IMG/VR virus record: IMGVR_UViG_3300046002_004254
Coordinates: 1 to 22,106 of that record
Length of the DNA stretch: 22,106 nucleotides
DNA from: a virus
Direction: 5' to 3' (one strand)
Each line of letters begins with the position of its first letter. Position 1 is the stretch's first letter. The position numbers were made by a program, and so were the translations under genes. A model generated the notes under the pieces. The model searched no databases and was not told the DNA's origin. It saw only the letters and a program-made list of their open reading frames with translations. Positions 1,858-7,286 of this stretch are shown here, one piece after another.

Positions 1858-2113
1858 AGAGAGTATTGATATGGGATATATTGGAATACCAAAAGGATAT
1901 TTTGTGTATGACAAGGAAACCAAAAAATTAATATGCAATGAAATCATAGATAGATTATTACTTCAAATAGATAGAGAAATAGACCCAACCATAAATAGGA
2001 TACAATTCTTGGATGAGATGATGGAATCTTCCATTGAAACAAACTTGAAAGATGAGAATTACGAAGTCGTACAGGTATTCAGCGACGTAAGAAAAATGCT
2101 TAATGAATCCTAA
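1844..2113 (+). CDS. Acidic protein of unknown function
   Basis: It encodes 89 residues and I do not recognise it. It is mostly helical and acidic in its second half (EIDPTINRIQFLDEMMESSI and the VFSDVRKML end). It has no cysteine cluster, signal peptide or membrane segment. The start is taken at the ATG at 1844, overlapping the upstream gene by 14 bases; an ATG at 1871 (residue 10) is an equally reasonable start and would remove the overlap. The end overlaps the sigma-like gene by 11 bases. Translational coupling to the sigma-like gene makes a regulatory partner conceivable, but nothing in the protein shows it. Confidence 0.6.
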   Translation: MKRDRESIDMGYIGIPKGYFVYDKETKKLICNEIIDRLLLQIDREIDPTINRIQFLDEMMESSIETNLKDENYEVVQVFSDVRKMLNES

Positions 2114-2621
2114 CATAGAGAAATGGATTGTCAAGAATTATACAGAACTACGAACGATTGCAAAAAAGATAACCAAAGATTCAGATTGGACTGATGATTT
2201 GTTGCAGGATGTTTTATTACAATTATACGAACGAAAGGAAATCAAATTAAAAACCATTGACGATAATTCCATAAAATATTATATTGTTGCTGTACTAAAG
2301 ATAAATTGGTATTCAAAGACATCACCATTTTTCCGAAAGGTCAGAATGGAATCATCCAAATACACAGAGTTATATGATATGATTGAGGTTCCTGATGACT
2401 GTGTGTTTGATGACCATAGATTGATGGAACTGATTGAGAATGAATGGACTGAGACAAATTGGTTTAACAAGATAATCTTTGAGAAATATATGATACTTGG
2501 TTCATTAAAGAAGGTATCAAAAGATACAACCATACCACTATCAAGTGTGGCAAGATATATCAAGGAAACAAAAATAACAATAAAGAATAATACAATAATA
2601 AAATTTAACCGTGATGAGTAG
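2103..2621 (+). CDS. Sigma-70-family-like (ECF-type) RNA polymerase sigma factor
   Basis: It encodes 172 residues, the size of short ECF-type sigma factors. Residues 5-75 resemble sigma region 2: a helix (IEKWIVKNYTELRTIAKKI), then the diagnostic DDLLQDVLLQLYER at 31-44, which normally binds the core-polymerase beta' subunit. Residues ~120-165 look like region 4: IIFEKYMILGSLKKVSKDT, then IPLSSVARYIKETK, a helix-turn-helix for the -35 element. The linker between holds an acidic stretch. Phage-encoded sigma factors redirect host polymerase, usually to late genes, and the packaging and tail genes lie directly downstream. Divergence is high, so it could be a sigma-like regulator that does not itself recognise promoters. 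It overlaps both neighbouring genes by a few bases. Confidence 0.65.
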   Translation: MNPNIEKWIVKNYTELRTIAKKITKDSDWTDDLLQDVLLQLYERKEIKLKTIDDNSIKYYIVAVLKINWYSKTSPFFRKVRMESSKYTELYDMIEVPDDCVFDDHRLMELIENEWTETNWFNKIIFEKYMILGSLKKVSKDTTIPLSSVARYIKETKITIKNNTIIKFNRDE

Positions 2622-3014: not shown

Positions 3015-3341
3015 ATGGACAAAGAATTAAAAGACAAATTGGAGTCTCTAAAATCCGATGGTAAGAAAAAGAAAGGTTGTAAAGATTGTAAAAATAAAGA
3101 ACCAATAACAGAATTACCAGAAATTATTGAAAACGATATATTTATACCTACAATGGAAGATATAAGAAATGCTTATGTTGAACTTGGAAATAGAGGTAAC
3201 GATAAAAGAGAATTCATTAATAAGGTATATCAATTCCTGTTTAACGATGACTTTGATTTCAGTTGTGGTTCCTGTGTCAATAAACAATCAAGAAGATTAA
3301 AGAACTATATCAACAATAACTCAGAATTAAAAGTATCATAA
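3015..3341 (+). CDS. Small protein with two CxxC pairs, unknown function
   Basis: It encodes 108 residues. Cys22/Cys25 (GCKDCKN) lie after a Lys-rich N-terminal segment, and Cys84/Cys87 (FSCGSCVNK) lie near the C-terminus. Together they could bind one zinc ion or work as two separate sites. Between them is a helical segment (MEDIRNAYVELGNRGNDKRE, then FINKVYQFLF). No catalytic motif is recognised. It directly precedes the small-terminase gene, whose ATG shares one base with this gene's TAA, so the two are almost certainly co-transcribed. A packaging or head-related role is possible from context only. Confidence 0.6.
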   Translation: MDKELKDKLESLKSDGKKKKGCKDCKNKEPITELPEIIENDIFIPTMEDIRNAYVELGNRGNDKREFINKVYQFLFNDDFDFSCGSCVNKQSRRLKNYINNNSELKVS

Positions 3342-3751
3342 TGGAACCAAAGAAAAAAGCAGGTGGACGTAAATCTAATGAAATAGAATACGAAGAAAAA
3401 ATGACCAGAGTATTTGAATTAATACTATGGGAAAAGAAATCATTTACAGAATTTAGAGACTTAGTATCAAAAGAATTTGAAATAACAACCAAAGCCGCAG
3501 AGAATATGTGGTACGATGCACGTAAAAGATTAAAGGAAAGACACACAGAAGAACACGAACAAATACTACAAGACCAACTAACAAGACTATACGACCTGTT
3601 AAATAGATGCCGTGAATCAGGTAACAGACGAGTTGAATCAGAAGTACTACGTGACCTAACAAAACTATATGGATTGGAACAAGCAAAAAAGATTGATATT
3701 ACATCAGGAGATTTACCAATTTCTGTTAATATTATTTTGAATAGTGACTAA
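3341..3751 (+). CDS. terS: Terminase small subunit (candidate)
   Basis: It encodes 136 residues, within the usual small-terminase size. After a basic start (MEPKKKAGGRK), residues ~20-64 form a helical DNA-binding-like region, with ITTKAAENMWYDARKRLKER resembling the recognition part. Residues 65-110 are an amphipathic helical segment suited to oligomerisation. The C-terminal beta part (LEQAKKIDITSGDLPISVNI) matches the style of many small terminases, which often end with a K-I-D/E-I-T pattern followed by a hydrophobic strand. The family forms a ring that recognises the packaging site and hands DNA to the large subunit. The large subunit follows after one small gene, which supports the call. 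Confidence 0.7.
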   Translation: MEPKKKAGGRKSNEIEYEEKMTRVFELILWEKKSFTEFRDLVSKEFEITTKAAENMWYDARKRLKERHTEEHEQILQDQLTRLYDLLNRCRESGNRRVESEVLRDLTKLYGLEQAKKIDITSGDLPISVNIILNSD

Positions 3752-3765
3752 TTTTTCTTATATTA
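3752..3765 (+). promoter_or_regulatory. AT-rich promoter-like motif after terS
   Basis: TTTTTCTTATATTA closely resembles AATTTCTTTATATTA at 1033-1047. Both lie at the start of a gap, upstream of a hairpin and a gene for a Cys-rich protein. A promoter is possible, with low confidence because the region is AT-rich. Confidence 0.3.
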
Positions 3766-3773
3766 TTGTATGA

Positions 3774-3791
3774 CCAAAACTTCGTTTTTGG
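3774..3791. promoter_or_regulatory. Short hairpin in the leader of the small Cys-rich gene
   Basis: CCAAAAC at 3774-3780 pairs with GTTTTTGG at 3784-3791 around a TTC loop, with one unpaired T. It is not followed by a T-run on the + strand, so it is more likely a leader hairpin or protein-binding site than a terminator. It ends 22 bases before the ATG at 3814. Confidence 0.4.
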
Positions 3792-3813: not shown

Positions 3814-4086
3814 ATGAGAAAAGAACCAATGGAAGTAGGATGTAAAACTAATATGTTAACCCTACTTGAGTACGATGAACCAGTCTATGATGGGTTTAGA
3901 ATGATTAAACGTGGAGTATTTGAATGTGAGTGTGGTCAGATTAAGACCAAGATGATACACAACGTCAAGTCAGGACAAACTAAATCCTGTGGATGTCTTT
4001 ACAGATTTATAGATAAAGAGTATATGATACAGGTGAATAAGAATAAAATAGGGATGAAGTATAAAAAGAAAATTAAAGTTGAGTGA
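3814..4086 (+). CDS. Small zinc-binding protein (CxC...CxC) between the terminase genes
   Basis: It encodes 90 residues. Cys38 and Cys40 (FECECGQ) and Cys59 and Cys61 (SCGCL) form a C-x-C-x18-C-x-C zinc-binding module with a KSGQTKSCGC end. Such modules are common as the N-terminal part of phage HNH or AP2-type homing endonucleases and in free-standing phage proteins. No nuclease or AP2 domain follows here; the remaining ~25 residues are basic. It may be a small DNA-binding protein or a leftover of a homing endonuclease inserted between terS and terL. It has its own leader with a hairpin and a promoter-like motif, and its stop overlaps the start of the terL reading frame. Confidence 0.55.
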   Translation: MRKEPMEVGCKTNMLTLLEYDEPVYDGFRMIKRGVFECECGQIKTKMIHNVKSGQTKSCGCLYRFIDKEYMIQVNKNKIGMKYKKKIKVE

Positions 4087-5404
4087 TATAAAATTAACCA
4101 AGAAACAATCTCAATGTTGGAAACTTCTAACAGATGATGTTACAAATATTATCACCTATGGAGGATCCGCTGGTGGTGGTAAGTCATATCTTGGTTGTTT
4201 ATGGATTAGTTCAATGTGTCTACAATATCCTGGTATCAGAACCTTAATAGGTCGTACCGTATTACAACAACTTAAACTAACAACTCTTAATACACTCTTT
4301 GAAGTATTACAATTAATGGGATTAAAGTCAGGAGAACATTACGTTTATAATGGACAATCCAATGTAATAACATTTCAGAACAAATCAGAGATAATATTAA
4401 AGGACCTTGCGTATCAACCATCAGACCCAAACTATGATAGTCTTGGTGGTATTGAGGTCTCAGCAATCTTTATTGATGAAGCAGCACAGGTATCACATTT
4501 ATGTTTCTCTATCCTTAAATCAAGGATACGTTATAAGTTAAATCAATATAGTTTAATACCAAAAGTATTACTGACCTGTAATCCTGGTCAGAATTGGATT
4601 AAGAAAGAGTTCTACATTCCGTTCATACAAGAGACATTGGAATTAAACAAAGCGTTTGTTCCCGCACTACCAATGGACAATCCCCATTTACCACCATCAT
4701 ATATTGAGATGTTGAAGGGATTACCTAATGCACAAAGACGTAGACTATTGGAAGGTGATTGGAATTACAATGAGGAAGATGATAGTATATTCAACTTTGA
4801 CCATATATCAAATTCTATATTCAGATTTAAACCTGAACCAACTGACAAGAAATATATGTCAGTTGACGTAGCAAGGTTTGGAACAGATAGGTCCGTAGTA
4901 ATGATTTGGAGTGGACTGGTGGTCTTGGAATGTCTCGTCTATAATAAGTTATCAACCACAGAATTATCGTCTGAAATTAGGGAGTTAATACAGAAGTACG
5001 GAATACATCCTAATAACATTATTGTGGATAGTGATGGAGTAGGTGGCGGAGTTGCTGACCAAATTAAGGGAACCAACTTTGTGAATAATTCATCACCATT
5101 ACACAAACAAAACTATTCCAATTTAAAATCTCAATGCTACGTTAAATTATCTGAACTATTTAAAGAAGGGAAGATATCAATCAATATAATGAACCCATCT
5201 GTAATTGATGACTTAACTCAGGAACTATTAGCGGTTAAGCTAAAGGATGTAGACAAAGACAATAAGGTATCCGTTCAATCAAAGGATGAGATGAAGAAGA
5301 TATTGGGTAAGTCACCCGATTTATCTGATGCACTGATGATGAGAGTTTACTACGAAATAAAGAATTTAAAATCAACAGGACGTTATGCAATAGCGTTCAC
5401 ATAA
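4079..5404 (+). CDS. terL: Terminase large subunit (packaging ATPase and nuclease)
   Basis: It encodes 441 residues, typical for the family. The N-terminal ATPase has Walker A GGSAGGGKS (28-36), Walker B AIFIDE (129-134) and the coupling motif TCNP (166-169). The C-terminal RNase H-like nuclease shows Asp263 in SVDVARFGTDRS, Asp317/Asp319 in IIVDSDGVGGG and the final acidic cluster SPDLSDA (Asp414, Asp417). The protein pumps DNA into the prohead and cuts the concatemer, working with the small subunit and the portal. The start is taken as TTG at 4079, overlapping the upstream stop by eight bases. No ATG occurs before the Walker A motif, and the Walker A position suits this start. All key residues are present, so it should be active. 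Confidence 0.95.
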   Translation: MSDIKLTKKQSQCWKLLTDDVTNIITYGGSAGGGKSYLGCLWISSMCLQYPGIRTLIGRTVLQQLKLTTLNTLFEVLQLMGLKSGEHYVYNGQSNVITFQNKSEIILKDLAYQPSDPNYDSLGGIEVSAIFIDEAAQVSHLCFSILKSRIRYKLNQYSLIPKVLLTCNPGQNWIKKEFYIPFIQETLELNKAFVPALPMDNPHLPPSYIEMLKGLPNAQRRRLLEGDWNYNEEDDSIFNFDHISNSIFRFKPEPTDKKYMSVDVARFGTDRSVVMIWSGLVVLECLVYNKLSTTELSSEIRELIQKYGIHPNNIIVDSDGVGGGVADQIKGTNFVNNSSPLHKQNYSNLKSQCYVKLSELFKEGKISINIMNPSVIDDLTQELLAVKLKDVDKDNKVSVQSKDEMKKILGKSPDLSDALMMRVYYEIKNLKSTGRYAIAFT

Positions 5405-5409
5405 AAACT

Positions 5410-6236
5410 ATGAGTGAAGTAACATTTAAATTACAAGGAAAAGATTACGAATTACCAAATTATTTATCTATTGGTGATTACGTTAAGATATTCAAAATCA
5501 AAGACTTATTTGAGGATGAGTATATGAAAGCAAAGGTTGTCAATCTATTAACAGATTGTCCAATGGAAACGTTAATAGATGCAGAAAACCATAAGGTGGA
5601 CTTCTTAGCAACAACAATATTTGCAATGGTACCACGACCACCATATAATCTTATTGATAGATTTACATTAGATGGTGTTGACTATGGTTATCTACCATCA
5701 TATAAAGAAATTACCTTCGGAGAATTTGTGGACCTTGATACCTTACTAACAAAGAAACCTGACGAGATAATGGACTATCTACATATAATCTGTGCAATAA
5801 TGTACAGACCCATAGTCTCGGAAAAATCTAAACACAATTTTAAAATTGAGAAGTATAATCAAGAGACCCTCAATGATAGGGCGGAACTCTTTAAGAATAA
5901 ATTAGAAGTCAAGTTTGCGTTAGGTGGACAGTTTTTTTTTATCAACTTCGGAAAGACGTATTTAAGCTTTACCCCTCTATCTTTGATGGGGAAGGTGAGG
6001 AGGGAATGGACGATATTAAAAATGATATGGACCCACAGGAAACTAATTTGGATCTTAGCTTTGAACAAAGGTTTGGATGGTACGTCGTCCTCAATAGAGT
6101 ATCAGAAAACTTACTTAAAGACCACGATAAAATCGTTGAAAAAAATGTTGTTGAAGTCCTAAACCAATTATTGTATTTGATAGAATACGATAAAGAACAA
6201 ATAAGATTACAGAAAAGAGCCCAAGCCCAAGGATAA
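5410..6236 (+). CDS. Frameshifted tail-assembly-chaperone-like protein (join 5410-5940, 5940-6236)
   Basis: The first 177 residues are read from the ATG at 5410 to a run of nine T (5932-5940). There the natural continuation switches to the -1 frame, which is open to a TAA at 6234-6236. The fusion is 275 residues, running QFFFYQLRKDVFKLYP across the junction. The -1 part is protein-like (FEQRFGWYVVLNRVSENL, then NQLLYLIEYDKEQ), while the unshifted frame runs 74 more codons with odd basic/hydrophobic sequence. TTT codons on the T-run form a classic U UUU UUU slippery site. Tail chaperones of phages (gpG/gpGT of lambda) are made this way, and the helical N-terminal part fits such a role. That identity is inference. 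Transcript slippage, or an indel or read error in the homopolymer, are alternatives. Confidence 0.6.
5932..5940 (+). other. T9 slippery site for -1 frameshifting
   Basis: Nine T follow CAG in the 0 frame (CAG TTT TTT TTT ATC). A -1 slip re-reads the last T as TAT and enters the downstream coding frame. The -1 frame has its last upstream stop at 5898-5900, so the shift must occur after that, and the T-run is the only obvious slippery string. A short CCCC/GGGG pairing (5972-5975 with 5988-5991) lies about 30 bases downstream and could be a weak stimulator. Confidence 0.6.
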
Positions 6237-6254
6237 TTCAGCGCACACTACGGG

Positions 6255-6274
6255 TCTTTTTATATTTAATATTG
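6255..6274 (+). promoter_or_regulatory. AT-rich motif in the gap before the duplicated-domain gene
   Basis: TCTTTTTATATTTAATATTG follows a locally GC-rich stretch (CGCACACTACGGGTC) and ends four bases before the ATG at 6279. It resembles the motifs at 1033 and 3752, and the T5 run after GGGTC also resembles the 3' half of a terminator. I could not find a convincing matching stem. Confidence 0.25.
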
Positions 6275-6278
6275 AAAG

Positions 6279-7286
6279 ATGAATATCAATTACAAACAAA
6301 TTCTAACGTACTTCAGTAGTATAGCCTACCATCACGAACAAATCCGTTCGTTTGGTTTCGGTGATTTAACTCAATGCACAAATGATATTCAAACAAAAAC
6401 AGAACCAAGATACACAAGAATGTATGTGGTCCCTGATACCGTTGAGTTAAATCAAAATCATATTCATTATAACTATAATATTATTATTATGGATATTGTT
6501 GAGGATGACTTATCCAACTTAGAAGAAGTGATGAGTGATACTCTTTCAATCGTTCAAGATGTATGGACAGTATTCTGGCAGTCATATAATGCAAACAACG
6601 GAAATTTCAGTAATATAATTATTGGTGATTGGGGTCCAAACGTTCAACCATTTCAAGAAAGGTTTCAGACAATACTTGGTGGATGGACAATGCAGATTAG
6701 AATGTCAGCACCGTTTGATTACAACAGTTGTGTATTACCAATAGCGGATGAATATCAATTCCCTCAGGATGAAAGTTATAGTTCATACCAACAGATATTA
6801 GAAGACTTTAAAAACTTTGCTTATTACCACGAACAAATTAATAGTTGGGGATTTGGTGACTATACTCAATTAACAAATGACGTAATAACAAAAAAGGAAC
6901 CACAATATCCTCGTTTATATTTTGTACCAAATACAACAAGATTTGAAGAGAACCATTTGAACATACAATATCAAGTAATCGTATGTGATAAGATTGAGGA
7001 TGATTTATCAAACCAAGCAGAGGTGCTAAGTGATACATTAGAAATATGTAAGGATTTATTCTCTTTGTCATATTTATCAGATTATGATGCTGAGTTTAAT
7101 TCATCATTGGAACCTTGGTTAGAAAGAACGGAATCAATAATTGGTGGGTGGACATTTCCATTAAACCTACAACAGAAGTTTGATTATAATAGATGCGTTC
7201 TACCAATAATAGATTTTGGTGGATTAACTTGGAAACAAGTTGCTGAGTTATGGAAAAATGTGGATGAAGATTGGAAGAATATATAA
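6279..7286 (+). CDS. Phage structural protein made of two tandem copies of one domain
   Basis: It encodes 335 residues. Residues 5-155 and 170-310 are clear copies of the same domain: YHHEQIRSFGFGDLTQ vs YYHEQINSWGFGDYTQ, IVEDDLSNLEEVMSDTLSI vs IEDDLSNQAEVLSDTLEI, ILGGWTMQ vs IIGGWTFP, and FDYNSCVLPI vs FDYNRCVLPI. The alternation of short strands with one long helix resembles tail-terminator or tail-completion folds, and the position between a chaperone candidate and tail genes fits, but I cannot name the family. The ~25-residue C-terminal tail (WKQVAELWKNVDEDWKNI) is extra. The copies have diverged, so the duplication is old. There is no signal peptide or membrane segment. Confidence 0.65.
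   Translation: MNINYKQILTYFSSIAYHHEQIRSFGFGDLTQCTNDIQTKTEPRYTRMYVVPDTVELNQNHIHYNYNIIIMDIVEDDLSNLEEVMSDTLSIVQDVWTVFWQSYNANNGNFSNIIIGDWGPNVQPFQERFQTILGGWTMQIRMSAPFDYNSCVLPIADEYQFPQDESYSSYQQILEDFKNFAYYHEQINSWGFGDYTQLTNDVITKKEPQYPRLYFVPNTTRFEENHLNIQYQVIVCDKIEDDLSNQAEVLSDTLEICKDLFSLSYLSDYDAEFNSSLEPWLERTESIIGGWTFPLNLQQKFDYNRCVLPIIDFGGLTWKQVAELWKNVDEDWKNI

Follow-up and report, generated by a model that had tools for sequence, protein, structure and literature searches.

An ECF-type sigma factor, encoded at positions 2103-2621 (+ strand) of the 22,106-nt viral DNA stretch analysed here (the window), probably acts as a late-gene switch in an uncultured phage family, because in this group the promoters of the virion genes differ in class from the early ones. 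Judged from its sequence and predicted structure, the protein is a divergent, small, virus-borne member of the ECF type.

A divergent ECF-type sigma factor and its relatives

An open reading frame with an ATG start occupies exactly the interval given in the original prediction and encodes 172 aa (family c1). It is not a chance frame, since relatives at 42-59% identity keep 13 residues invariant across a 62-sequence alignment, including L33, L34, V37, Q40, N68, S74, and P75. One relative is 96% identical, and by stepwise widening of the profile we found at least 179 stretches in IMG/VR that encode relatives. The reading as a phage-encoded ECF-like sigma factor is borne out by profile searches, in which both region 2 and full-length ECF models match the protein or its relatives. 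The window protein matches Pfam Sigma70_r2 over residues 11-44 (E=6.6e-4, 19.9 bits, below the curated cut-off of 24 bits), TIGR02985 (Sig70_bacteroi1) over residues 11-162, spanning regions 2 and 4 (E=1.2e-4), and TIGR02937 (sigma70-ECF, E=1.9e-4); it misses the curated NCBIfam cut-offs of the latter two (22.4 vs 126.4 bits and 21 vs 43 bits). Among the 62 alignment members, 60 match TIGR02937 (best 2.5e-11), 53 match TIGR02985, 48 match the PHROG annotated as RNA polymerase sigma factor (best 6.7e-9), and 32 match Sigma70_r2 (best 2.4e-6).

Regions 1.1 and 3 are absent, and regions 2 and 4 are connected by a short linker, the layout of group 4 (ECF) sigma factors. Region 2 covers approximately residues 6-90 (2118-2372, +) and includes the loop KTSPF (residues 72-76) between its helices; region 4, with a helix-turn-helix (HTH), covers approximately residues 104-170 (2412-2612, +). 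The helix segment on which the original prediction drew, DDLLQDVLLQLYER, comprises residues 31-44 and falls within the stretch matching Sigma70_r2. Conservation peaks at the helix end and loop N68-W69...S74-P75-F76, with W69 and F76 kept in ≥90% of the 62 relatives, and at the HTH (G133, S134, V138, S148, Y152). Following the usual layout of sigma factors, these two parts would be the -10 and -35 reading elements.

That the protein has a sigma fold is very probable. An AlphaFold2 model built from the 62 sequences (mean pLDDT 84, pTM 0.45) has two helical domains joined by a low-confidence linker at approximately residues 87-103, with helices at 54-70 and 75-86 in region 2 and, in agreement with the predicted C-terminal HTH, at 120-132, 135-142, and 146-170. 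The C-terminal part matches region 4 of sigmaE bound to -35 DNA (2h27) with a TM score of 0.72-0.77 and an rmsd of 1.5-3.2 A. When the model was compared with the PDB, the sigma fold was retrieved: nearly all leading matches were ECF sigma factors, with probabilities up to 1.00 and E values from 3e-3 upward. Whole-chain scores are modest because the domain arrangement of the model is untrustworthy. The best PDB fold match was chain C of 9n9q, an RNA-guided transcription complex (20-22% identity, E 3e-3 to 6e-3); that complex is guide-RNA-directed, whereas nothing comparable is seen beside the window sigma gene. The nearest viral model is A0A6J7WFY6 in BFVD, from an uncultured Caudovirales phage and annotated as RNA polymerase sigma-70 region 2, which belongs to the same family (54% identity, E=1.3e-15) and is itself an uncharacterised, predicted protein.

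A tblastn search with three family members against 50,697 phage records gave no match at E≤1, and bacterial genome contigs searched with a six-member alignment yielded none, hence no prophage or host copy at that sensitivity. PDB sequence searches with the single protein and with profiles returned nothing meaningful, the top matches being fragments of Sleeping Beauty and tetanus toxin at E 0.17-1, which we judged to be chance. The large terminase subunit (TerL) of the window is closest to those of Flavobacterium phage 11b (46%) and Cellulophaga phage phi10:1 (41%), and a flavobacterial host is therefore likely. Both of these phages and Bacteroides phage Versailles lacked a sigma match by tblastn. 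Size-matched proteins upstream of TerL in the three phages were considered as counterparts and rejected as unlike by eye. In the literature on flavobacterial phage sigma factors, we found no description of the present family.

Gene order and the leader of the sigma operon

The sigma gene sits in a fixed gene order across 80-odd loci. A leftward early block is followed rightward by c8, c4, c3, sigma, small genes, c5, optional HNH-type inserts, TerL, c6, c7, fibre and other virion genes, the tape measure gene, c67, c27, c20, c19, the portal gene (c14, directly after c19), and several smaller genes. The sigma operon opens with c4 (1147-1857, +), an HTH protein with a possible zinc finger (HTH_23, E=2.2e-5; PHROG endonuclease VII, 1.5e-7), which is the second gene upstream of sigma in 54 of 60 loci. 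It is followed by c3 (1844-2113, +), which encodes 89 aa with no assigned function; its last 11 nt are shared with the start of the sigma gene, and it immediately precedes sigma in 57/62 loci. Downstream lies c5 (3341-3751, +), a putative small terminase subunit (TerS) by size and position only, with no convincing family match in Pfam and PHROG searches, found within 2.5 kb downstream of sigma in 56 of 61 loci. TerL itself (4079-5404, +; PHROG_2, 5.8e-38) lies within 5 kb of sigma in all 38 loci. Further on, c7 (6279-7286, +), which is preceded by late-type sites in the relatives, heads the late virion operon, and the window ORFs downstream of it match tail fibre, virion structural, and tape measure families. 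Presence of c7 goes together with presence of sigma: 14 of the 15 c7-bearing loci that reach well upstream of TerL encode sigma, and the exception (L161) begins downstream of its place, such that all 14 loci covering the place have it.

The original placement of sigma ahead of the late genes is thus right, with terminase and virion genes following it, and "just before packaging genes" is roughly so, the putative TerS gene lying 720 nt and TerL ~1.46 kb downstream. The packaging genes look like part of sigma's own operon, because no late-type promoter sits between sigma and TerL in the window; the first one precedes the ORF at 6279.

Several other features of these loci were observed. The gene after TerL, c6 (5410-6236 in the window), carries a slippery T run at 5932-5940. 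In 46 of 51 distinct c6 genes such a run is combined with an open -1 frame extension of ~97-100 aa, and the run has exactly nine T in 35; the arrangement resembles programmed -1 frameshifting of the kind seen in genes for tail assembly chaperones. The predicted -1 product in the window ends at 6236, right before the late promoter. A hairpin-like element, AAAACTTCGTTTTTG (often followed by AC), lies at 3776-3790 ahead of the HNH-type gene and recurs 3-23 nt before the ATG of near-terminase genes (L030, L045, L058, L060, L066, and others), with 14-22 forward and 0 reverse intergenic copies. On the leftward strand of the early block, host-like promoters in L016, L027, L039, L058, L072, and L076 are followed by 150-420 nt free of ORFs, which might correspond to non-coding RNAs or to extended leader regions.

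The leader of the sigma operon contains an intrinsic terminator (1074-1120, +), a hairpin at 1074-1116 followed by TTTT, which is a candidate attenuator. Counting hairpins with T-tracts against shuffled sequences, we found a terminator before c4 in 41 of 46 non-redundant relatives (1/46 after shuffling), before c8 in none of 33, and before c6 in none of 44. The stem sequences differ among relatives while pairing is kept, and the loop is often CTCCCAT or CTTCCAT; an Rfam search gave no family in the window or in eight relatives. At or just before the c4 start, the sequence TATTTAT (1135-1141, +) is identical in 33 of 33 aligned leaders. This leader suggests that the sigma operon is under attenuation, because its promoter sits ~30-40 nt before the terminator.

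Two promoter classes built on one box

To find the promoter box we counted intergenic 10-mers without favoring any motif, and TTTATATTTA proved strongly oriented (47 forward and 1 reverse copies; 2.8 expected). We then sorted the boxes by downstream gene and removed similar sequences, which left two promoter classes that have the box TATATTT(A) in common. The host-like class precedes regulatory genes (c4, c8, and leftward c16), including sigma's own operon; here a TT[G/T] at positions -23 to -21, ending 20 nt before the box, is present in 53 of 66 sites. The late class precedes the two virion operons, headed by c7 and by c19, the small gene before portal, and has TT[G/T] at these positions in 0 of 37 sites. 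Late sites have a C at -15 in 30/37 cases (c7, 20/27; c19, 10/10) vs 4/66 for host-like sites (c4, 4/35; c8, 0/20; c16, 0/11), and TT at -2 and -1, directly before the box, in 31/37 vs 5/66. Fisher's p values for the main class features are 4e-15 and below, which is overstated as the sequences share descent.

The two sets of late sites predict one another. With the box left out, a matrix trained on c7 sites separates c19 sites from host-like sites with an AUC of 0.97-1.0, and one trained on c19 sites separates c7 sites with an AUC of 0.90-0.97. The features common to c7 and c19 sites are few, namely the C at -15 and the TT ending at -1: c7 sites carry AATTTCA near -24, which c19 sites are without, and in a subgroup of c7 sites the C is shifted by one or two positions. 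For a held-out set we scanned with the c7 protein, not with sigma, and obtained 73 newly fetched loci with 16 non-redundant c7 upstream regions, all unlike the training sites. By score, 15 of the 16 fall into the late class; TT[G/T] is missing from every region, and in 10 the C sits precisely at -15. We also counted 20 late matches in halves of 10 near-complete genomes (30-35 kb), or about two per genome; nearly every one precedes c7 or c19, and host-like sites cluster in the regulatory region. Four phages with a related TerL and no detectable sigma had 0 late matches in 51 kb. That matches are confined to c7 and c19 partly reflects how the matrix was built, because it was trained on those sites; this does not apply to the absence of other late matches, to the cross-training, or to the held-out set.

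The -33 element of the host is TTTG. Flavobacterium host promoters have a -7 box of the form TAnnTTTG (PMC9723704), and the host-like class resembles this pattern. ECF-type sites of Flavobacterium have CGT (PMC9723704); the candidate late promoters have a TATATTTA box and not the CGT-type -10 element that is typical, not defining, of ECF sigma factors.

In the window we observe a single late site (6246-6268, +), with C at 6246 and box TATATTTA at 6261-6268, scoring 29.6 bits; 20 shuffled windows contained 0 such matches, and the c19-portal operon falls outside the window. The c7 box is only ~7-11 nt from the ATG, and the late mRNA would therefore have almost no leader, provided that transcription starts at the same place relative to the box as in the host. 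The promoter position of the c4-c3-sigma operon (1017-1048, +) has TTTC at 1017-1020 and box TATATTAG at 1041-1048; it is a diverged member of the host-like class whose score of 7.4 is below the cut-off, and TT[G/T]-N20-TATATTT is found upstream of c4 at the same position in 35-38 non-redundant relatives. A further host-like box, at 3759, precedes the inserted HNH-type gene. Three sites, at 1033, 3752, and 6255, had been proposed as promoters of the sigma factor. Only that at 6255 proves to be of the late class (late/early matrix scores 29.6/0.1), and the other two are host-like (box 1041, -9.8/7.4; box 3759, -10.4/13.0).

A proposed late-gene cascade

The simplest reading of these data, we infer, would be a two-step cascade, in which the host holoenzyme acts first and host core polymerase carrying the phage sigma takes over. 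In the first step, the early genes and the c4-c3-sigma-TerS-TerL operon would be read by host RNA polymerase and the host's primary sigma from promoters with a TTTG-like element and TATATTTA. The sigma-operon transcript would have to get past the leader terminator, where it may be regulated. The new sigma would then bind host core polymerase and redirect it to the late promoters, with binding, recognition, and timing all as predicted by the model. These promoters would keep TATATTTA and, in place of the TTTG element, would have one with a C ~15 nt ahead of the box, together with a TT that abuts it; they would head the c7-fibre-tape measure and c19-portal operons. We consider this model probable. 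Points that weigh against it are the lack of CGT in the late box, the small number of features common to c7 and c19 sites, the exact -15 position of the C in only 10 of 16 held-out sites, and the sub-threshold Pfam and NCBIfam scores of the window protein. We put forward only tentatively a more specific picture, of an uncultured, probably Flavobacteriaceae-infecting lineage in which an ECF-type sigma keeps TATATTTA and re-specifies the upstream contact and the box-adjacent bases, with a minimal regulon of two promoters and with sigma itself gated by phage-controlled attenuation at the leader terminator and its CTCCCAT/CTTCCAT loop.

Different assignments of the sigma-like protein could account for part of these observations. 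The host primary sigma could read the late promoters with the help of a phage activator, most likely c4, that replaces the -33 contact, the ECF-like protein being otherwise employed. Such an arrangement would fit the late promoters, which retain the TATATTTA box, near the host TAnnTTTG (PMC9723704), and lack only the -33 element, as well as the co-conservation of c4 with sigma and the HTH_23 match of c4. We nevertheless consider it unlikely, as the phage protein has both sigma domains with a near-invariant region 2 loop and HTH residues, the shared C at -15 is near a possible region 4 contact, and c4 also resembles endonuclease VII-like proteins.

Still less probable is that the protein, for all its likeness to a sigma factor, is a regulator of another kind, binding DNA close to the terminase genes through its HTH and keeping region 2 as a relic. 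ArpU/RinA-type proteins, the late regulators of Firmicutes phages, would be the model for this, and the position ahead of the terminase genes and the weak region 2 score of the window protein are in its favor. However, region 2 is, with the HTH, among the most conserved parts of the family, with N68, S74, P75, L33, L34, V37, and Q40 all invariant, and ECF models match the protein over its full length. We give very little credence to the earlier proposal that sigma uses promoters with the motif TTTCTTTATATTA at 1033, 3752, and 6255. Similar AT-rich strings do occur at all three places, but the motif is at or near chance level and two of the sites are host-like when compared with relatives. An exact copy is present once (1035-1047), matches with ≤2 mismatches number 11 in the window vs 6.3 +/- 2.4 in shuffles, and the related form TTTNTTATATTA occurs 5 times vs 6.2 by chance. 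What survives of the proposed distinct late circuit is that the phage group has its own class of virion-gene promoters; the motif does not.

Phage-encoded late sigma factors are already known as a kind. For the cascade favored here, the best precedent is Salmonella phage 7-11 (phiEco32-like), whose late sigma SaPh711_gp47 is also phage-encoded with a region 4 and reads bipartite late promoters, while host sigma70 reads the early ones (PMC8948821). Phage 7-11 is, however, an enterobacterial podovirus, whereas no deposited phage yielded a sequence match to the window sigma; unlike in 7-11, late and host-like promoters of the window group share their box, and a terminator lies in the leader of the sigma operon. 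The phi32_gp36 protein of phiEco32 is likewise a phage sigma, for middle and late genes, but it shows no homology to region 4 and recognises one element only, tAATGTAtA (PMC8948821); the window sigma has region 4, and in its group the upstream bases differ between promoter classes. As to descent from the phiEco32-like/7-11 sigma family, the tblastn search of phage records found no similarity at its threshold.

Together, these observations provide a candidate switch to late gene expression in phages that we know here from metagenomes alone, with a candidate regulon of about two promoters per genome. In this group, two sigma specificities that share one box could be compared in a natural setting. 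Standard genetic parts perform poorly in Bacteroidota (PMC9723704), for which this system would supply promoter parts and an orthogonal sigma factor.
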